Made by a program: the position numbers and the translations under genes. Source: a virus. From it: a DNA stretch of 35,040 nucleotides. The stretch covers positions 1 to 35,040 of the IMG/VR virus record IMGVR_UViG_3300042465_002555; one strand, written 5' to 3'. Positions 11,901 to 34,970 of the stretch are shown piece by piece (the stretch's first letter is position 1; each line of letters opens with the position of its first letter). The notes below the pieces were generated by a model that saw only the letters and a program-made list of their open reading frames with translations, ran no database searches and was not told the DNA's origin.

Positions 11901-13611
11901 GCCGCGCCGTGAGTTGGAAATTCAACTTATGGAAGCGCAGGGCCGTTCGGTTGAGGCGCTGGCCGCAAGCCGTCAGCTTGAATTGGAAGCAATGGACGCA
12001 TCTTTGCGCTCGTTGCAAAGCATGATTTATGCAGAACAAGACCTTGGTGCTGCCCGTGCAGCAGAGCAAAGCGCCATTTCTGACCTTCGCGCTGCCGTTG
12101 ATATGCTTAATTCCAATGTTGCTGAAGCAGAAGCCAATCTTGCTGAAGCATTAAGGGCGCAGCGTGAGCGTCAAATGGAAAGCTATCGGGCGCAAATTGC
12201 TGACCTTGATGTCATTATTGCCAAGCGTCAGGAAGCTCAAGACGCATTGCGCCGCGCCTATGATGCTGAAATTGCGCGTATTGACGATGAGATTAGCAAG
12301 CGTAATAGCAACATCCAATCGCTTGAAGACGCATACTCAAGTCAATCTAATATCATGCAAGGCACAATTGACCAATTCCGTGACTTCGCATCATCATTGC
12401 GCGATTTTGCAGCAAGCATTATTCCCATGAATGGCACTGGGCCACAATCTTTGGAAGGCTTGCGCCGCCGCTTTGCAGATGTAACCAAGGCTGCTCTTGG
12501 TGGTGACAAAACGGCGATGGGTGAAGTTGTCGGAGTTGGTGGGCAATTACGCGAAAGCATCATGGCAAACGCTACTGACCGCACATCCATGCTGCGTCAG
12601 CTTTATGCGCTACAGGCCCAAACAAACACGGTTGTCAGCGGTGCAGAAGACCAAGCGACTATTGCTGAGAAGCAACTGGCAGAAGCAAAACTGCAAAGCG
12701 ACCATCTTATTGGCATTGAAAACAAGGCTATCGCCCAGCTTAATGCTCAAAAGGAAGCGGCTACTGCGCTTGTTGGTCAGTTTATCCAACTTAGTGAAGC
12801 AACCCTATCAGTTGATGAAGCTATCCGTTTGCTTCAAACAGCCGAGCAAGCAGCTACCAGTGCAGAACAACAGAAAGCTTATCTGCAATTGCAGATTGAT
12901 GCTTTGACAGCCCTTGATGAAAGCGTAATGAGCGTTGAACAAGCGCAACGTGAACTAGATGAAGCAAAGGCAGAACGTGACTCTGTGCTGGCTGAAATTA
13001 ACGCTCGCGGCTTCGGAGAGCTAATTGCGGTAACAAAACAAACAGGCGCTGAAATGGCAAGAATTGCCATGTCCGCAATTGACAGCGCACGGGCATCGGC
13101 GGCACAAGCGCAAGCTGCTTTGGATGCTGCGAAGGCTGCGGCGGCTAAACCTCCTGTTGTTCCTACAGTTGTTCCTCCTGTCGTTTCCGTCCTGCCTGAT
13201 AATGTCATTCCATTCCCAATTATGGGTGGTGGTTCTGGCGCTGCTGGTGGCTTCAACGATATAGGTATTCCGCAAAACCTTTATGGCGGCGGCTCAGGCG
13301 GTGGGAGCTTCCGTGAATTTGGCGTTAATAATAATATCCGTCCATTTGCTAATGGCGGCATCCATAGTGGTGGCCTTCGCGTTGTTGGTGAGAATGGCCC
13401 TGAGCTTGAAGCAACTGGCCCAAGCCGGATTTATAACGCTAACCAACTTGAAGGCATGATGGGCGGCGGCGGAACAGCCGAGGAAGTTAAGGCGCTGCGT
13501 GAAGAACTTAAACTTGCCATGTATCAAATTGCCAAAAATACTGGTAAGAGCTATGACCTAATGAACCGCTGGGATGGTGATGGCTTGCCGCCTGAAAGGA
13601 TAGTTGCCTAA
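8911..13611 (+). CDS. Tape measure protein
   Basis: This 1566-aa protein is the longest in the genome. Its length sets tail length, and its domains are ejected with DNA. The N-terminal ~250 residues (ADLANLRISVDSREVK..., then QLGQAFASGTLRGDELNSVMEGMPRVA) match the common tape-measure N-terminal domain. Hydrophobic segments lie at about 265-370; a Gly/Ala-rich segment (about 760-810) and long coiled coils (about 970-1370) follow, then a Pro-rich and Gly-rich C-terminus with a common tail motif (NGGIHSGGLRVVGENGPEL). GTG at 8911 is chosen because AGGA (8899-8902) lies 8 bases upstream; TTG at 8905 is too close. The next gene overlaps its last base (TAATG). Confidence 0.9.
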   Translation: MADLANLRISVDSREVKTATSDLNNLSRASGDAEQKTNGLGRAFGGLRGVLAGLGFGLLARELITMADTFTNMQSQIRLVTTSTAELAAVQTRLFEMAQNSRVSYEGTVDLYARLARSTKALGVSQESVLTVTDSINKALLVSGTSSAQASGALMQLGQAFASGTLRGDELNSVMEGMPRVATMIAEGMGITVGELRKLGAQGKLTGAEVFNAIMKMKDSVEVEAAKMPMTFGQSMTVLRNSLIQFVGSANETLGITKNLAAFVALLANNLDVLTVAVGTAGAAFVALKASMAVSFVVSYIRSVIGLQMALGATGTASAIFSAGLKMIEGAFRSLTATMMLNPFVAVASAIVAVTTLLYANRDAQVQVAGQTVRFGDIFLGVFELIKQGVAFVTKIFREGWAAAIGSVAPNLAWLGGIFSKVFSAIGGFIKSWINTQIGFFAGLWAAVTAIFKGEDITDAFGAAFKKDYVGGFVKQVGNGIVSLANLGAQANKTSKAAVSLGEQGMATATAAMGKTAKKTKEATDELKKYRDALADMVVEGKKIGMTPEQAKAFDVEALADEAEAVAKANKLNIGTLADRIRQQGMLNALNQYAADIQKKVSDELKDYAKAIADNNKAHSDTMTTLKGEATLLGLVGVEREKASLALEREAYVLKYGVTAWEEYHAARTANINAKSVIDKDIEALQTLTNNLETAAGMIGGKVGRSVQGILKTEITLKDGETKKISEAIAATFPQLGSALSAVLAGAQVGTSVDSLFKSVGIKSSKMGAQVGGAIGSAAFGPVGAIAGSILGGVLGGMLKKTKTGSATISQIAGQGMQTALSGNSAALRDVANTMATGLLKGLGSMAEQLGGTLGGNVKVSLGMRNKDFVVDPTGGGRTKGAGVKNFGTDEAAAVAYVTQLAIQQGIVTGISAGAQTLIRAGNDLNEQVQKALKFDQVFKDLVNESDPLRASLDELSVEMEKLKVIFAEAGASAADYAKLEELYAIKQAKAIFEANRPRRELEIQLMEAQGRSVEALAASRQLELEAMDASLRSLQSMIYAEQDLGAARAAEQSAISDLRAAVDMLNSNVAEAEANLAEALRAQRERQMESYRAQIADLDVIIAKRQEAQDALRRAYDAEIARIDDEISKRNSNIQSLEDAYSSQSNIMQGTIDQFRDFASSLRDFAASIIPMNGTGPQSLEGLRRRFADVTKAALGGDKTAMGEVVGVGGQLRESIMANATDRTSMLRQLYALQAQTNTVVSGAEDQATIAEKQLAEAKLQSDHLIGIENKAIAQLNAQKEAATALVGQFIQLSEATLSVDEAIRLLQTAEQAATSAEQQKAYLQLQIDALTALDESVMSVEQAQRELDEAKAERDSVLAEINARGFGELIAVTKQTGAEMARIAMSAIDSARASAAQAQAALDAAKAAAAKPPVVPTVVPPVVSVLPDNVIPFPIMGGGSGAAGGFNDIGIPQNLYGGGSGGGSFREFGVNNNIRPFANGGIHSGGLRVVGENGPELEATGPSRIYNANQLEGMMGGGGTAEEVKALREELKLAMYQIAKNTGKSYDLMNRWDGDGLPPERIVA

Positions 13612-14504
13612 TGATTATCATTCAGCCCGTTCCTATTACTGCGGCGATGCTGACGGCATCCAACGTGCCAGAGACTGACGCGCCACTTTGGACGGCTGGC
13701 ACGTATTCTCTTGGCACACAGCGCATCTATGAACATCGTGTTTATGAAGTAATTGTTGCCAGCACGACTGACCGCCCTGACATAGGCGCTGCCGCTGCTA
13801 CACCTACATGGCTAGACCTTGGCGCAACTAATCGCTTCAAGATGTTTGACCAAATTATTAGCACTGAAACAGTTTACGCTGGCGAGGTTGATGTTGACAT
13901 TACGCCAGCAGCTATTGTAAATTCGGCTGCATTTTTTGGCCTTTCAGGTAATGAAATTACTCTCACGATTACTGACCCAATTGACGGCGTGGTTTATATT
14001 GAGACACGAAGCCTACAAGATAACACGCTAATCATTGACTGGTATCCTTACTTCTTTGAGGAAATTGCGTATTTATCAGATATGGTTTTCCTTAACCTCC
14101 CCGCTTATGGAAGTGCTACACTTAACGCCGTCGTGGACGCTGGTGCTAGTGATGCAAAGGTAGGTGAAGTTGTCATTGGTAAGCAGCGGACGATAGGCGC
14201 AACTAATTTTGGCACTAGCGTCAGCATTCAAGATTATTCAATAAAGTCCACTGATGAATTCGGTAACACAATCATTGTGCAACGGGCTTACAGTAAACGC
14301 GCTGATTATGATGTTACTGTTGAGACATCATCTGTAGCTGCTGTTCAGAAGGCGCTTGCTGATATTCGCACGACACCCACTGTCTTTGTTGGTGACGAAA
14401 ACCGACCAGAAACATTTGTCTATGGATTTTACAAACAATTTAATATAGTGCTATCTACACCAAGCATATCAGATTGCTCTATTGAGGTTGAAGGATTGGT
14501 TTAA
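13611..14504 (+). CDS. Distal tail / tail tip structural protein
   Basis: This 297-aa protein begins MIIIQPVPITAAMLTASNVPETDAPLW and then has a carbohydrate-binding-module-like small domain (TYSLGTQRIYEHRVYEV, then PTWLDLGATNRFKMFD). This N-terminal pattern recurs in tail-tip proteins of many siphophages. The rest is beta-rich. Placed directly after the tape measure and before the fibres, it most likely forms the tail hub or distal ring. I cannot tell whether it is Dit-like. Coupled at both ends by single-base overlaps. Confidence 0.6.
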   Translation: MIIIQPVPITAAMLTASNVPETDAPLWTAGTYSLGTQRIYEHRVYEVIVASTTDRPDIGAAAATPTWLDLGATNRFKMFDQIISTETVYAGEVDVDITPAAIVNSAAFFGLSGNEITLTITDPIDGVVYIETRSLQDNTLIIDWYPYFFEEIAYLSDMVFLNLPAYGSATLNAVVDAGASDAKVGEVVIGKQRTIGATNFGTSVSIQDYSIKSTDEFGNTIIVQRAYSKRADYDVTVETSSVAAVQKALADIRTTPTVFVGDENRPETFVYGFYKQFNIVLSTPSISDCSIEVEGLV

Positions 14505-15557: not shown

Positions 15558-16922
15558 ATGGCCGACCAACTTAAAGAAATCTTTAACGCCGACACTTACC
15601 TGAACTCGTTTTCGGGGGCGTCGAAGACTATTGTCACGACGAACTCAACAACGCAGTATATGATCAAAGACGTTCAGGTTGGGGCTAACACAATTCCGGG
15701 AACAGAGGCGCTTACGGTCAATGGTGTGCCGGTAGCAGCGTCACTGGCCACTAGTGTTGCTGGCTCTGAGATTGTTGACGTAAGCAGCACTGTTGCGCTG
15801 CAACTTCCAGCCACGCCAGTTTATACAAAACTTCTATATAACTCGATGAGAGATGGGTATGGCACCGGCAGTTTTTCTACTGACGCGGCTGTATACACCG
15901 CCGCAATTAACTCAAATTCCTCCTCGACCGCTGTCACGACCGTATCTGCGGCTCTGGCGGCAAGCATTGCCTCAGTAGGCGGTGAACCAACGATAGAACA
16001 TTGGTTTGTCGGCAGTGATTTTTATTATTGGACAAATAACAGTAATAATACTTGGGCGTTTTATAAGCGCACTGGTGGTATTAACGGGACTGAAACACTT
16101 CTGAAAAAGTCTGACAACACTGGGACGATTACTCAAAATCCCGGACAATACGGCTGGGTGCTTTATAGTGCAACGGCAAATAAATTTTATCTTTATGGAA
16201 CCAGCCGCATCGTTGTAACTTACGATCCGACTAATAATACCTCGTCGAGTGTAGCAACCAGCGCCCCTTCGCACTCTACCTATTACCGAGCAACTTTGTC
16301 AAATAACGGGTTAATTTTTGTTATCCCAAGCACTGGTTACTCGACACAAGTATATGCTATCAACCCCGCAAACGGGTTATATATTACGTTTAACGGCCTG
16401 TATGATTGGAACATCCAAGAAGTTGGCGCGGATGCGGGTATGAAAATATTGGTGCATTTCAGTGGAACCCAATATTTTATCTGGCGTACTCAGAGCATAA
16501 ATAGTGCATATTGGTATTTAGCATCGACAAACCCTGCGGTTGTACCGACGTTCCCTTCTTCATCGTCAACAACTTATTCTAACTATATATCAAATGTCGG
16601 CGGTCCCATCACTATTGGGGGTGTTGGCGGCAACATTGTTGCCCAACTTGGCCAAGGATATCTTCCAGACACCTATAGTGCTAATAACGCGGCGTATGTG
16701 TATGTTGTGACCCCAAGCGCAACAGCACCTACTGTAGCGTCATTTAGTATGACAACTGGGGCTGTTACGGTAACTACATTAACTGGGATTTATATCGGAT
16801 CGGGGCGCGGCTTCAAAACATTTAGTCCTACTGCGTCCGCGACCGGAGGAGAAATCGCCAGCACAACCAACTTCCCGCAGCTAATCCGTCTTCGGGTTAC
16901 TGGCGTTGAAACCACACTGTAA
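15558..16922 (+). CDS. Putative receptor-binding / tail fibre tip protein
   Basis: This 454-aa protein is rich in Ser, Thr, Asn and Tyr. It starts MADQLKEIFNADTYLNSFSG and has no recognised enzyme motif. The middle has repeated blocks of about 45-55 residues with a Tyr-aromatic strand followed by Asn/Ser turns (HWFVGSDFYYWTNNSNN, GWVLYSATANKFYLYG, TYYRATLSNNGLIFV), which suggests a beta-propeller or other beta-repeat fold. Its base use (more GGG, TCG, TTC) differs from neighbouring tail genes, as often seen in exchanged receptor-binding genes. Role inferred from position after the fibre gene. Confidence 0.6.
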   Translation: MADQLKEIFNADTYLNSFSGASKTIVTTNSTTQYMIKDVQVGANTIPGTEALTVNGVPVAASLATSVAGSEIVDVSSTVALQLPATPVYTKLLYNSMRDGYGTGSFSTDAAVYTAAINSNSSSTAVTTVSAALAASIASVGGEPTIEHWFVGSDFYYWTNNSNNTWAFYKRTGGINGTETLLKKSDNTGTITQNPGQYGWVLYSATANKFYLYGTSRIVVTYDPTNNTSSSVATSAPSHSTYYRATLSNNGLIFVIPSTGYSTQVYAINPANGLYITFNGLYDWNIQEVGADAGMKILVHFSGTQYFIWRTQSINSAYWYLASTNPAVVPTFPSSSSTTYSNYISNVGGPITIGGVGGNIVAQLGQGYLPDTYSANNAAYVYVVTPSATAPTVASFSMTTGAVTVTTLTGIYIGSGRGFKTFSPTASATGGEIASTTNFPQLIRLRVTGVETTL

Positions 16923-30249: not shown

Positions 30250-30751
30250 CTATCAGGTCGGTGGTGACCACTACGCATCAAAGGCGGTTCAGCCTTGGGA
30301 AGCTATGCAAGCGTGGATGACTAAGGAAGCATTCGCTGGATATTTGCATGGCAATTGTATAAAATACTTAGCAAGGTATCTGGACAAGAATGGGGTTCAA
30401 GACCTAAAGAAATGTCAACATTATCTCGCAAAGCTTATTGAGGTAGAGGACGGCAGCAAAATTATAGATGACACGGCGGAGAAGGATGATGGCACGGTAG
30501 GCTATGGTAAGCCACCAAAGCATACTCGCTTTAAGGCTGGGCAGTCAGGAAACCCAAAGGGCCGTCCCAAAGGTCAAAGCAACCTCACCAAGCTTATTGA
30601 ACTAGAAGTCAAAAGGAATATGATGGCTGAGAACATACTGCAATTTCAAGCTGGCCGCGAAGCTGCAATATTTGGATTGTCACGGGACACACGGCGCAGC
30701 AAAGATTGGCTGGAAGGCTATGACCAAGTGAAGGCAGAAGCTAATGATTGA
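30233..30751 (+). CDS. DUF3310-DUF5681 fusion protein
   Basis: This 172-aa protein has an N-terminal DUF3310 (SaV-like) domain: DYQVGGDHYASKAVQPWEAM, CIKYLARYLDKNGVQDLKKC. The C-terminal segment resembles DUF5681: GYGKPPKHTRFKAGQSGNPK, GRPKGQSNLTKLIELEV. The second domain is often found near phage packaging or DNA modification genes. ATG 30233 has GAGGA upstream; it overlaps the XRE gene by 17 bases. The fusion itself is visible; function is not known. Confidence 0.7.
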   Translation: MMKTNDYQVGGDHYASKAVQPWEAMQAWMTKEAFAGYLHGNCIKYLARYLDKNGVQDLKKCQHYLAKLIEVEDGSKIIDDTAEKDDGTVGYGKPPKHTRFKAGQSGNPKGRPKGQSNLTKLIELEVKRNMMAENILQFQAGREAAIFGLSRDTRRSKDWLEGYDQVKAEAND

Positions 30752-31529
30752 CGCACCAAAGATTGAGCAGCGGCTTGTAGCAGATTTAATACCTTATGCA
30801 GCCAACAGCCGCACGCACAGCGATGCACAAGTCGCACAGATAGCCGCGAGCATTAAAGAATTCGGCTGGACGAACCCTATTCTCGTTTCTGGTGACAACA
30901 GCATCATTGCAGGGCATGGACGCTTACTGGCTGCACGCAAGCTGGGCATGGATGAAGTGCCGGCAATTGTCCTTGACCACCTAAGCAAAGCACAGCAACG
31001 CGCCCTTGTGATAGCCGACAACCAACTTGCTTTAAACGCAGGGTGGGACATGAAGATGCTGAAGGCCGAGATTGAAGACCTTGACCTAGAAAACTTCAAC
31101 CTAGAGATATTGGGATTTGATGAAAGCTTTTTGGATGAACTGCTGGAAACAACGCCATCTGGAGATGCTGATAACCCCTATACGACAAAAATTAGCACAC
31201 CTGTTTATGAGCCAAAGGGCGATAAGCCATCGGTAGAAGAACTATACGACGATAAAAAAGCAGTAGATTTGGTGGCCGCAATTAAAGCCAGCAAGCTCAA
31301 TGAAAAAGAAAAGCAATTTTTGATGTCGGCGGCTTCACGACATATTGTCTTTGATTATGCAAAGATTGCTAATTTTTACGCGCATTCGTCTGCGGACTGC
31401 CAAGAGCTTATGGAGAACAGTGCGCTAGTAATTATCGACTTTGATAAAGCGATAGAAAATGGTTTTGTGAAATTAACCGACGAAATTAACAATATGTTTC
31501 AAGGCGATGAAGCCGACGAAGATGAATAA
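30744..31529 (+). CDS. ParB-like nuclease-domain protein
   Basis: This 261-aa protein has the ParB N-terminal domain: EQRLVADLIPYAANSRTHSD, AASIKEFGWTNPILVS and IIAGHGRLLAARKLGMDEVP (GHGR box at 57-60). A helical region and a separate C-terminal domain (about 150-250) follow, with SVEELYDDKKAVDLVAAIKA and MSAASRHIVFDYAKIANFY. Phage proteins of this build sit near terminase and DNA-modification genes and often precede methyltransferases; here the next genes are a nucleotidyltransferase fusion and a glycosyltransferase. The C-terminal domain may be the partner-specific part. Confidence 0.82.
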   Translation: MIDAPKIEQRLVADLIPYAANSRTHSDAQVAQIAASIKEFGWTNPILVSGDNSIIAGHGRLLAARKLGMDEVPAIVLDHLSKAQQRALVIADNQLALNAGWDMKMLKAEIEDLDLENFNLEILGFDESFLDELLETTPSGDADNPYTTKISTPVYEPKGDKPSVEELYDDKKAVDLVAAIKASKLNEKEKQFLMSAASRHIVFDYAKIANFYAHSSADCQELMENSALVIIDFDKAIENGFVKLTDEINNMFQGDEADEDE

Positions 31530-32475
31530 CGACTACACCTTTGTCCGTCATGGGCAAACATACTGGAATAAGAATGGCATAATGCACGGGCAATATGACA
31601 TTCCATTGAATTACACTGGCGTCAAACAAGCCGTAAAAATTTCCAATGAATTGAAGAACGAATTTTTTGATTTATGCTTATGCTCTCCGCTGCAACGGGC
31701 AAAGTCCACCGCTTTCAGCATATTGCGCCATCATAAAAATACGCAAATTCTATATGATGATAGGCTAAAGGAATTAAGCAAGGGATTGCTTGAGGGCAAA
31801 CATTTGAACAGTGAAAAGCTGCTAAAAAATGAAGACCTTAATTTGCTTAAAAAATTCAACATCGAAAGTAAGGTAGAATTTTTTGAGCGCGTAAAGCAGT
31901 TTGTAGACGAAACCGAGAAGAAATATAAAAACAAAAAAATTCTGATAGTGGCCCACAGCGGCACTATTAAAATGCTATTTTTTGCTTTTGATTTTCCGAA
32001 AGCTCCGCTTCATAAGGCTTACTATGATTTGCATATTAAAAACTGTAAGGCATATAAGGTTGGCTCAATACATTTAGAAAGCAAGAAAATGAAAATTGGT
32101 TTTTTCCCAATGGTCGCAGACATTCTACATTCCGGCCATGTGTTATCCCTTGAGGAAGCTAAGAAGCATTGTGACTTTCTGATTGTTGGGCTGCACTGTG
32201 CGCCAAGCTATAAAAACCCACAGCAATCAATCTATGAGCGGTATATGCAGCTACGGGCTGTAAAGTGGGTAGACGAGGTTATCCCTTATGAGAACATCGA
32301 AAAGGACAAGGACATTTTTGTGTCTTTAGACTATGATGTCTACTTCCTTGGCGAAGACCACAAAAGCGATGATTGGGAATTGAAAGACAAAATCGAGGAG
32401 ATGGACAAGGAGATTGTCTACCTAAAGCGGAAGCATAATTACAGTAGCCGGAAAATCAAAAATGAGTGCAAATAA
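31522..32475 (+). CDS. Histidine phosphatase-nucleotidyltransferase fusion
   Basis: This 317-aa protein joins two enzymes. Residues 1-185 are a histidine phosphatase (phosphoglycerate mutase-like): FVRHGQT (His10), SPLQRA (Arg59), ELSKGLLEG, VAHSG (His145). Residues 190-317 are a cytidylyl/adenylyltransferase of the glycerol-3-P cytidylyltransferase type: KIGFFPMVADILHSGH (HxGH at 203-206), ERYMQLRAVKWVDEV, FLGEDHKSDDW. The pair could trim and then activate a sugar or alditol phosphate as an NDP donor. Start ATG 31522 gives a normal phosphatase N-terminus; ATG 31507 is possible. The gene looks AT-richer than its neighbours. Confidence 0.82.
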   Translation: MNNDYTFVRHGQTYWNKNGIMHGQYDIPLNYTGVKQAVKISNELKNEFFDLCLCSPLQRAKSTAFSILRHHKNTQILYDDRLKELSKGLLEGKHLNSEKLLKNEDLNLLKKFNIESKVEFFERVKQFVDETEKKYKNKKILIVAHSGTIKMLFFAFDFPKAPLHKAYYDLHIKNCKAYKVGSIHLESKKMKIGFFPMVADILHSGHVLSLEEAKKHCDFLIVGLHCAPSYKNPQQSIYERYMQLRAVKWVDEVIPYENIEKDKDIFVSLDYDVYFLGEDHKSDDWELKDKIEEMDKEIVYLKRKHNYSSRKIKNECK

Positions 32476-33337
32476 AAATATTGCCGTTTTTATCCTTTCG
32501 CACGGAAGGCCGGATAACGTCATCACATATAAGACGTTGCGTAACTGTGGCTACACGGGCAAAATTTTCATCATCGTGGATGACGAAGACAAGACGTTAA
32601 GCCAATACAAGGCCAAGTATAAAGACGAGGTGATTGTCTTTAGCAAAAAAGATTATGAGCAAAAATTCGACATAATGGATAACTTCGATGGCAACAAAGT
32701 CATCGTTTATGCGCGTAATGCCTGTTACGACATAGCGCGAGAACTAGGCTTAGATTACTTCTTCGAGTATGAAGATGATTATACAAATTTCCAATATAGA
32801 TATATTGATGGAAAAGCATTAAGAGGCATAACGCCTAAAAATCTGGATAGCATATTATCCGCAATGATTGAATGCTTGGATGCAACAGGCTCCAGCACCA
32901 TAGCATTTTGCCAAGGTGGTGACCACATGGGAGGAGTTAGGAGCTTCGACCACATTAGCTATAAAAGAAAAGCAATGAATAGCTTTGTCTTTAAGGTTAA
33001 TCAAAACCCAGCAGATGATGTATTATTCATAGGCCGCATGAATGATGACGTAAACACATATTTAACGCTAGGCAAAACAGGAAAATTATTTTTCCAAATA
33101 GCTGTTGTAAACCTAGTGCAACTTCAAACTCAATCCAACTCTGGTGGCAACACAGACGCGTATAAATTATTTGGAACATACGTTAAGTCTTTTTATAGCG
33201 TCATAGCTGCGCCTGATTGCTGTAAGGTCGCATATATGGGTTCTGCTAATAGGCGACTGCACCATAAAATAAACTGGAACCATGCTGTGCCTATGATTTT
33301 AGACGAAAAGCATCGCAAACCAAGGTATGCAGAATGA
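32462..33337 (+). CDS. TET-associated-type glycosyltransferase (TAGT-like)
   Basis: This 291-aa protein begins NIAVFILSHGRPDNVITYKT and carries GKIFIIVDDEDKTLSQY, VIVYARNACYDIARELGLDY, FFEYEDDYTNF (acidic metal site near 104-106), CQGGDHMGG and GRMNDDVNTYL (Asp195, Asp196). These match my memory of the TAGT family of phage DNA glycosyltransferases, which add sugar to hydroxylated bases and usually sit next to TET/JBP dioxygenases. No dioxygenase, methyltransferase or hydroxymethylase gene is present here, so the acceptor is unclear. It overlaps the nucleotidyltransferase gene by 14 bases, suggesting donor synthesis and transfer are paired. Confidence 0.72.
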   Translation: MSANKNIAVFILSHGRPDNVITYKTLRNCGYTGKIFIIVDDEDKTLSQYKAKYKDEVIVFSKKDYEQKFDIMDNFDGNKVIVYARNACYDIARELGLDYFFEYEDDYTNFQYRYIDGKALRGITPKNLDSILSAMIECLDATGSSTIAFCQGGDHMGGVRSFDHISYKRKAMNSFVFKVNQNPADDVLFIGRMNDDVNTYLTLGKTGKLFFQIAVVNLVQLQTQSNSGGNTDAYKLFGTYVKSFYSVIAAPDCCKVAYMGSANRRLHHKINWNHAVPMILDEKHRKPRYAE

Positions 33338-33726
33338 CAGATGTTAAACTAACCGCAAAGCAAGAAACCTTTGCCCAAGCTATAGCAGATGGTCTGGGCC
33401 AAGCTGACGCATATCGCATGGCTTATGATGCTGAAGGCATGAAGGATGAAAGCATTTATCCGCAAGCATCCAAGCTAATGAAAAACCCCAAGGTCGCCAC
33501 AAGGATTGGTGAATTGAAAGCGCAGGTTGCAGATAAGCAGCTATGGACGCGAGAGATGTCGGTTAAAGGCTTGATAAGCGCATATCGGATTGCACTAGAG
33601 GCCAAGACCTCAACGGGCATGACGGCTGCGGTTAAAGAGCTAAACATCATGCACGGTTATAACGAACCGACCAAGCTTTCGGTCGATATGAAGTTTAAGC
33701 CGATTACGGATGAAGACTGGCTTTGA
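33334..33726 (+). CDS. terS: Terminase small subunit
   Basis: This 130-aa protein matches the Terminase_2 family: LTAKQETFAQAIADGLGQAD, AYRMAYDAEGM, SIYPQASKLMKNPKVATRIG, then the helical oligomerisation region and a C-terminal tail (KFKPITDEDWL) for contact with TerL. It recognises phage DNA for packaging. ATGA overlap with the glycosyltransferase, TTGA overlap with terL. Confidence 0.88.
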   Translation: MTDVKLTAKQETFAQAIADGLGQADAYRMAYDAEGMKDESIYPQASKLMKNPKVATRIGELKAQVADKQLWTREMSVKGLISAYRIALEAKTSTGMTAAVKELNIMHGYNEPTKLSVDMKFKPITDEDWL

Positions 33727-34970
33727 ACTTCACTGATAGCCAGAAAGCGTTTGTCTTTAGCCAAGAGCCATTCCCTGCCTTTGTTGGTGGCTTTGGCTCT
33801 GGCAAGACGGCTGCTGGCATCGCACGCATTATGCGGCTCAAGCGTTACTGCCCTTATCAGGATGTTGCCTACTACCTGCCGACCTATCCGCTTATTGAGG
33901 ACATTGCTTTTCAACGTTTCCCCGCACTGTTTGAAAAGAACGGTATTCCATTCAAATTAAATCAACAAAAGGCGGTGATGGAAACGGAACTAGGCCGCAT
34001 CATATTTCGCAACATGGAGCAACCCGACCGCATCGTCGGTTATGAAGTGGCACATAGCGTAGTAGACGAGCTTGACACCCTGCCTATCGAAAAGGCTCGT
34101 TCCGTCTGGAATAAGATTATCGCCCGTAACCGCCAGAAGGCATTCACGGTATCTGGCAAGCCTGTGAAAAACACCGTAGCTGTAGCGACAACACCAGAAG
34201 GCTTCCGCTTTGTCTATGACCGATGGGTAAAGAACAAGGCTGAAGGCTATGCGCTGTATCGCGCCAAGACATCTGACAACGCAGCCAACCTGCCAGAAGA
34301 TTACATCAAGAACCTACAGAACAGTTATTCGTCCAGCTTATTGGCTGCATACCTTGATGGCGAGTTTGTCAACCTAACGGCTGGCAGCGTTTACCCAGAG
34401 TTTGACCGCAAGCTAAATTATACCCTTGAGCGCATACAACCAAGAGAGCCTTTACACATTGGCCTTGACTTCAACGTCAACAACATGAGCGCCATAGTCT
34501 GCGTCATCCGCAACAACAATCCGCTGGCACTTGATGAGCTAACAGGCGTCAGAGACACGCCAACAATGATTAGGGCGTTGCTGGAGCGTTACCAAGGGCA
34601 TTCGATAACAGTTTACCCAGATGCGTCAGGCGGGGCGACCAAGAGCGTCAACGCCAGCTTGTCTGATATAACCTTGCTGCGCTCTGCTAATTTCACAGTG
34701 CTTGCGCCAAGCAAAAACCCAGCCGTCAAGGACAGGGTAATGGCGCTTAACCAAATTATCCACAATCAGGGCGTGCGGAGATTGTTGGTAAACCCTGACA
34801 AATGTCCTAACCTAATCGAAGGATTAGAGCGGCAAGCCTACAATAAATCAGGTGAACCAGATAAAACGGCTGGCCTCGACCACTTAAACGATGCCATTGG
34901 CTATTTTATTGCGTATAAGTATGCTATTGGTAGAGGAACGGTTTCCTTCGCTCAAATATCTGGGGTGTAA
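33723..34970 (+). CDS. terL: Terminase large subunit
   Basis: This 415-aa packaging motor has ATPase motifs: Walker A GGFGSGKT (22-29), Walker B SVVDELD (112-118) and a coupling motif VATTPEG (154-160). The RNase H-like nuclease domain has GLDFNVNNMSA (Asp249), YPDASGG and a late Asp in LDHLNDAIGYF. It starts at TTG 33723 overlapping the terS stop and runs directly into the portal start (TAAATG). Length and motif order are normal. Confidence 0.92.
   Translation: MNFTDSQKAFVFSQEPFPAFVGGFGSGKTAAGIARIMRLKRYCPYQDVAYYLPTYPLIEDIAFQRFPALFEKNGIPFKLNQQKAVMETELGRIIFRNMEQPDRIVGYEVAHSVVDELDTLPIEKARSVWNKIIARNRQKAFTVSGKPVKNTVAVATTPEGFRFVYDRWVKNKAEGYALYRAKTSDNAANLPEDYIKNLQNSYSSSLLAAYLDGEFVNLTAGSVYPEFDRKLNYTLERIQPREPLHIGLDFNVNNMSAIVCVIRNNNPLALDELTGVRDTPTMIRALLERYQGHSITVYPDASGGATKSVNASLSDITLLRSANFTVLAPSKNPAVKDRVMALNQIIHNQGVRRLLVNPDKCPNLIEGLERQAYNKSGEPDKTAGLDHLNDAIGYFIAYKYAIGRGTVSFAQISGV

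Follow-up and report, generated by a model that had tools for sequence, protein, structure and literature searches.

Gene organisation of the cassette

The viral DNA analysed here, hereafter called the window, comprises positions 1 to 35,040 of the IMG/VR record IMGVR_UViG_3300042465_002555, i.e. a stretch of 35,040 nucleotides. Directly upstream of its terminase genes lies a cassette of three genes, predicted to encode a ParB-type protein, a phosphatase-nucleotidyltransferase fusion and a glycosyltransferase of the TAGT family (Table 1). Successive overlaps from the ParB-type gene through to terL are 23, 14, 4 and 4 bases. A preliminary description of this DNA had placed three overlapping genes directly before terS, with RHG and HxGH motifs in the fusion and a TAGT-like glycosyltransferase as the last product; the coordinates proved exact, both motifs are present and the Pfam families agree, with all matches of the cassette open reading frames (ORFs) exceeding the curated cut-offs. 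An exact 105-bp direct repeat at both ends of the 35-kb contig fits, as expected, a closed genome.

The trio is not a chance assembly, since it recurs in the same order (ParB-RHIVF, phosphatase-nucleotidyltransferase, TAGT) at approximately 70 further virus loci, its genes have low ratios of nonsynonymous to synonymous substitution (dN/dS about 0.004-0.13) relative to their nearest relatives, and the catalytic residues of the fusion are invariant in 13 diverse fusions. Related loci are cited below by L numbers where they need to be told apart.

Table 1 Cassette genes, predicted domains and adjoining terminase genes in the window
Feature	Position	Strand	Size, family and basis
ParB-type partner gene	30744-31529	+	261 aa
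ParB/Srx (ParB-CTPase fold) domain, aa 5-135	30756-31148	+	Pfam PF02195, Foldseek; optional in the family
RHIVF domain, aa ~140-255	31161-31508	+	helical in the AlphaFold2 (AF2) model, no Pfam model; obligate TAGT partner
Phosphatase-nucleotidyltransferase fusion gene	31507-32475	+	322 aa
Histidine phosphatase domain of fusion	31507-32064	+	PF00300 (His_Phos_1), E 2e-35; RHG, R64, E89, H150
HxGH (TagD/CCT-like) nucleotidyltransferase domain of fusion	32089-32472	+	PF01467 (CTP_transf_like), E 6e-14
TAGT-family glycosyltransferase (GT-A fold) gene	32462-33337	+	291 aa; PF20691, AF2 model
terS, terminase small subunit (context)	33334-33726	+	Pfam PF03592
terL, terminase large subunit (context)	33723-34970	+	Pfam PF03237, PF17289

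Glycosyltransferase and its RHIVF partner

The profile search matched the product of 32462-33337 to TAGT (PF20691) with an E-value of 8e-30 and 104.7 bits (cut-off 27.5), covering model positions 2-204 of 205, and its PHROGs label is beta-glucosyl-HMC-alpha-glucosyltransferase (phrog_842, E 4e-61). The AF2 model (pLDDT 79, pTM 0.80) had as PDB matches in Foldseek the GT-A enzymes SpsA, ColGalT1, AvpGT and TarP (E 1e-5 to 1e-4), with TM-scores of 0.36-0.48 giving support at the level of the fold. The protein is thus, judged from its model, a glycosyltransferase of the GT-A fold. The motifs ARN, EDD, QGGD, RKAMN and DDVNTY are conserved in the TAGT proteins.

Alignment of the ParB proteins divided the ParB-type partner into two domains. 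The first matches ParB_N (PF02195) with an E-value of 5.7e-7, and the top Foldseek matches of its model, Noc and ParB-CDP, assign it a predicted ParB-CTPase fold; the P-motif GHGR is found in the window domain and not in every relative. The second domain is named RHIVF in this analysis, after its motif AA.RHIVF.Y..IA.YYAH....Q.LME.SALVIID...AI.NGFV, in which R199, H200, Y212, E224 and D232 are conserved. Foldseek searches against the PDB and viral models returned ParB-type proteins and nothing informative for the domain itself. A metal-dependent oxygenase was considered for it and rejected, because the domain is not large enough and H214 varies.

With RHIVF alone as the query, tblastn found 28 phage records, all 28 of which were among the TAGT records, and a scan of IMG/VR gave at least 591 confirmed relatives, of which 80 loci were examined, 79 of them new. 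A TAGT gene was located downstream in every one of the 79 new loci, and in 78 it was either within about 70 bases or separated from RHIVF only by a nucleotidyltransferase or fusion gene. TAGTs lacking RHIVF were that of phage T6 and a distant one in L109, which adjoins a ParB gene without RHIVF. The ParB domain was more variable: the partner gene consists of RHIVF alone in L070, L108, L110 and Vibrio phage Va1, and in L053 RHIVF is preceded by a different, divergent N-terminal region. ParB_N on its own is promiscuous, being found in 500 phage records that often carry a methyltransferase annotation, in agreement with a published survey in which ParB domains were fused to phage DNA methyltransferases (PMC12704722). 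RHIVF rather than ParB is therefore the constant partner of TAGT, ParB being dispensable, and the genes of RHIVF and TAGT are an obligate pair. The ParB domain expected from the preliminary description is indeed present, but it is optional, and the obligate partner had been missed.

The remaining one of the 79 loci (L202:4360-7544) has its TAGT gene 3.2 kb from RHIVF, and no clearly homologous gene was recognised in the interval.

Absence of known base-preparing enzymes

Whole-genome searches of the window for Tet_JBP, DNA_methylase (C5), N6_N4_Mtase and Thymidylat_synt were all negative, which bears out the earlier statement that no dioxygenase, methyltransferase or thymidylate-synthase-like gene is present. 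The same description held that TAGTs normally sit with TET-type dioxygenases, which does not apply to this branch: TET was found in none of 58 TAGT-bearing records (28, then 30 searched). These searches had no internal positive control; the same search, run separately on mycobacteriophage Nigel, found its TET at an E-value of 4e-8, a clear match although it did not reach the curated cut-off. Of 56 records, 2 matched C5-methylase (one over only 80 model positions), and of 26 records, 2 matched N4/N6-methylase; apart from the T6 control, Va1 was the sole tested relative with a thymidylate-synthase-like gene. Many TAGT records are incomplete, so that a single absence is weak, and together the absences are strong. 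Lack of a hydroxylase is the rule for TAGTs of this branch and not an oddity of this phage.

Phosphatase-nucleotidyltransferase fusion

The phosphatase domain has phosphoserine phosphatase and CobC as PDB relatives. Its residues R14, H15, G16, R64, E89 and H150, i.e. the RHG motif with the second Arg, the Glu and the His that define branch 1 of the histidine phosphatases, are those conserved throughout the 13 fusions, which include one from L108 at about half identity, and its sequence places it in that branch. The nucleotidyltransferase motif H208-x-G210-H211, which reads HSGH in the window, is equally invariant. To judge by sequence, both the phosphatase and the HxGH nucleotidyltransferase are intact. 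The latter is the most constrained part of the cassette (dN/dS 0.004-0.017), and its closest PDB chain is glycerol-3-phosphate cytidylyltransferase (1COZ, E 4.6e-14), making TagD the closest solved relative. It scored 54.8 against TIGR01518, for which the cut-off is 165.4, and its C-terminal signature is RxHx(F/Y)SS, unlike the RTEGIST motif of TagD. The combination of a phosphatase with an HxGH nucleotidyltransferase follows the logic of the GmhB/HldE and TagD donor pathways, and differs from GmhB/HldE in having a histidine phosphatase instead of a HAD phosphatase and in being one fused protein. A bacterial homologue of the whole fusion was searched for and not found.

Nucleotidyltransferases also accompany TAGT without a phosphatase, in the order RHIVF, nucleotidyltransferase, TAGT in L052, L053, L060, L066 and L070, and with the nucleotidyltransferase first in L110. 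In L219 the order is RHIVF, TAGT, nucleotidyltransferase, and in L109 ParB, distant TAGT, nucleotidyltransferase. On a TAGT tree of 71 rows, which excludes the TET-associated TAGTs, the presence of the nucleotidyltransferase required 3 changes, compared with 17 in shuffles; L219 is firmly separate, whereas L110 and the window clade could represent one gain and one loss. The nucleotidyltransferase has thus been gained beside TAGT on at least two and probably three occasions, in different gene orders, and therefore probably supplies the TAGT donor. A role of the fusion as donor-activating enzyme, as first proposed, is probable. HIGH-superfamily nucleotidyltransferases that provide nucleoside diphosphate (NDP)-sugars for glycosyltransferases have been described in jumbo cyanophages (PMC7824862).

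We consider it very unlikely that the fusion is unrelated to TAGT, serving for example cofactor or surface-polymer metabolism, and came to lie between the pair by happenstance. Other phage HxGH nucleotidyltransferases do occur in NAD (L117) or NDP-sugar (L113) clusters, and most ParB/TAGT pairs lack the fusion. The two or more independent gains beside TAGT, in differing orders, argue otherwise, as does the finding that every nucleotidyltransferase with at least 60 % identity and available flanking sequence has a TAGT nearby.

Several other arrangements were observed during the searches. In an uncultured bacterium (L139:6528-9989) a histidine-phosphatase domain is apparently inserted in a 1153-aa ORF resembling isoleucyl-tRNA synthetase; this locus was rejected as a bacterial homologue, as it contains no phosphatase-nucleotidyltransferase fusion. 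A virus contig (L113:7145-11636) encodes a HAD phosphatase-NTP_transferase fusion followed by an epimerase, an HxG[HY] nucleotidyltransferase and a DegT aminotransferase, and is a parallel phosphatase/nucleotidyltransferase fusion, probably serving NDP-sugar synthesis. In the nucleotidyltransferases of large phages (L111, L115, L119) HPGY replaces HxGH, which would alter an active-site histidine. An operon of Agathobaculum phage AB434P2 (L127:769-5582) encodes a P-loop kinase, a choline-kinase-like protein, an HxGH nucleotidyltransferase related to that of the window and a weakly glycosyltransferase-like protein, and continues with a thymidylate-synthase-type dUMP hydroxymethylase and a second weakly glycosyltransferase-like protein; it is a candidate thymine hypermodification cluster. 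The presence of a related nucleotidyltransferase there also speaks for the reading set out below.

Proposed function and acceptor

The cassette may be a unit for the glycosylation of DNA, situated next to packaging or replication genes, targeted by ParB/RHIVF and supplied by the fusion with an activated sugar or polyol, a reading for which we judge the chances to be even. The phosphatase would act on a bis-phosphorylated sugar or polyol and strip it of one phosphate, in the manner of GmhB, which acts before HldE in the ADP-heptose pathway. The nucleotidyltransferase would then attach a nucleotide, probably CMP as in TagD, to the monophosphate that is left, and the activated donor so made would free the phage from the donor pool of its host. 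ParB/RHIVF would position TAGT on the DNA, and TAGT would move the group onto phage DNA around packaging or replication. ParB domains probably position partner methyltransferases or a TET enzyme, fused or adjacent, in other phages. In mycobacteriophage Nigel (L234:1-4129) the ParB-type gp1 overlaps the TET/JBP gene gp2, with an adenylate-kinase-like gene and the terminase next in line, a layout which parallels that of the cassette with another DNA-modifying enzyme in the place of TAGT.

We infer from the context that DNA is the acceptor, which is favoured because of the DNA-handling neighbours, the occurrence of ParB next to DNA-modifying enzymes and the precedent of the T6 TAGT, a glucosyltransferase which acts on phage DNA and adds glucose to glucosylated hydroxymethylcytosine (PMC13216743). 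A large terminase gene was recognised by eye no more than 3.2 kb downstream of the cassette in 43 of the 59 loci with enough sequence. Clamp-like genes, also called by eye, adjoin the cassette in L108 and, together with a DNA polymerase gene, in L110, while in Va1 the cassette has a sliding clamp and SSB as neighbours. The neighbour survey found no sugar genes consistently beside TAGT across the loci, terminase-like genes being the commonest downstream neighbours. Since this phage and nearly all its relatives lack a known acceptor-preparing enzyme, the most likely acceptor is a base that is unmodified or that RHIVF/TAGT can handle without prior hydroxylation. The broader proposal, that in viruses of bacteria and archaea RHIVF and TAGT are a self-contained pair that would attach sugars directly to unmodified DNA bases with no preceding hydroxymethylation, and here would use a donor made by the fusion, is put forward tentatively and must be called doubtful.

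Several observations weigh against glycosylation of DNA. Enzymes that prepare an acceptor, TET included, are absent from nearly all relatives, unlike the situation in known DNA-glucosylating phages, and no chemical data were found for the DNA of phages that carry the RHIVF-TAGT pair. The ParB domain is missing from the RHIVF-only partner genes mentioned above, and the nucleotide-site Arg of ParB is not conserved in L074, L130 and L132. The enzyme of known structure nearest to the nucleotidyltransferase produces CDP-glycerol, and GT-A enzymes do not typically take a glycosyl group from this compound. Genes near the terminase can, moreover, also act on proteins.

The main rival, and a serious one, is that the unit glycosylates a protein side chain, on the RHIVF/ParB partner, the terminase or another virion protein, with the donor steps unchanged; we rate it as unlikely. 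It would account for the near-general lack of an acceptor-base enzyme, and an invariant adjacent partner can itself be a substrate. The Foldseek matches include the protein glycosyltransferases ColGalT1, LH3, SunS and ThuS, and NCBI calls the E. coli TAGT a 'GREB1-related protein' in part of the genomes, and O-GlcNAcylation of a protein has been reported for GREB1 (Shin et al. 2021, cited in PMC10908778). The unit is, however, located among DNA-acting modules (ParB, sliding clamp, terminase), the T6 TAGT acts on phage DNA, and the conserved R, H, Y, E and D core suits a structural or catalytic RHIVF domain better than a mere acceptor.

Glycosylation by TAGT of a modified or oxidised base made by the host, or of another nucleic-acid hydroxyl, appears quite improbable. 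The hosts span haloarchaea, Lactobacillus, Nocardia, Porphyromonas, Vibrio and E. coli, and we know of no hydroxylated-base pathway common to them. The phage genomes do lack the needed enzymes, as such an acceptor would explain, and some viruses are thought to borrow a base-modification pathway of their host, with preQ0 as the precedent (PMC8651126).

Comparison with known systems

The T6 ggt product (beta-glucosyl-HMC-alpha-glucosyltransferase) resembles the window TAGT in being a phage-encoded PF20691 protein of GT-A fold, with about 19 % aligned identity. In T6, unlike the window, a dCMP hydroxymethylase gene adjoins ggt, an alpha-glucosyltransferase is present and TAGT has no RHIVF partner. 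The window likewise differs from T-even-type DNA glucosylation in the absence of a dCMP/dUMP hydroxymethylase, for which the T6 control was positive. The TET/JBP-associated phage TAGT systems of Iyer et al. and the Weigele laboratory reportedly share the TAGT family and nearby ParB genes; the branch studied here is set apart from them by its lack of TET. In phage ParB-methyltransferase fusions the DNA-acting enzyme carries a homologous ParB domain, whereas in the window ParB is joined to RHIVF and the glycosyltransferase is a separate, adjacent gene.

The TAGT family itself is not new, and a 2026 study already remarked on unexplained solitary TAGTs: it counted 288 of 753 glycosyltransferase-encoding phage genomes that have TAGTs without an alpha- or beta-glycosyltransferase, and considered TAGT function as yet undefined (PMC13216743). 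Added here are the obligate partner domain, the branch-wide absence of a known base hydroxylase, the putative donor-activating module and the E. coli prophage version, which is amenable to laboratory work. In a literature search that did not extend to key older work (Iyer 2013, PNAS 2021, GREB1), no description was found of the RHIVF domain, the obligate pair or the phosphatase-nucleotidyltransferase fusion; priority for the three is uncertain. If the acceptor is plain DNA, the unit would stand for a DNA hypermodification of a new class and would bear on evasion of restriction and CRISPR, and if it is protein, a widespread and so far unrecognised phage protein glycosylation.

Distribution and E. 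coli prophages

The RHIVF-TAGT pair was found in phages of Lactobacillus (phage c5 among them), E. coli, Salmonella, Nocardia, Vibrio and Porphyromonas, and in the archaeal virus HHTV-2 (Haloarcula). Pairs without the fusion are far commoner than those with it, and the pair occurs without a known base-preparing enzyme in hundreds of phages and in many prophages of E. coli. At least 80 % of the pair is present in 885 of 5426 complete E. coli genomes in RefSeq (about 16 %). The E. coli pair (L134:5208-6924) consists of ynaK and the gene of a protein named 'GREB1-related' or hypothetical by NCBI, and belongs to Rac-like prophages. It is similar to the window in having ParB-RHIVF and TAGT, both with about 50 % identity, directly before terS where inspected, and differs in lacking the phosphatase and nucleotidyltransferase. 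In K-12-type strains all that is left is a truncated ynaK next to ydaY, and in at least one other strain ynaK is disrupted and TAGT intact. The E. coli TAGT alleles differ by few changes, mostly silent (dN/dS about 0.1-0.2).

Other genes of the window

The remaining genes are a standard siphophage set, encoding portal, head, tail and lysis proteins, exonuclease, SSB, GapR, NinB, YqaJ, ERF, a replication initiator and MazG. Nearly all large ORFs were thereby assigned, with the exception of 13611-14504 and 15558-16922, both in the tail module. The latter (454 aa) was considered as a cryptic enzyme and rejected; it is rich in Ser, Thr and Asn, has no PDB match and was taken to be a tail protein. 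Between the portal and head-morphogenesis genes, positions 1551-2579 encode a collagen-like protein with Gly-X-Y runs, a possible acceptor if TAGT targets proteins.

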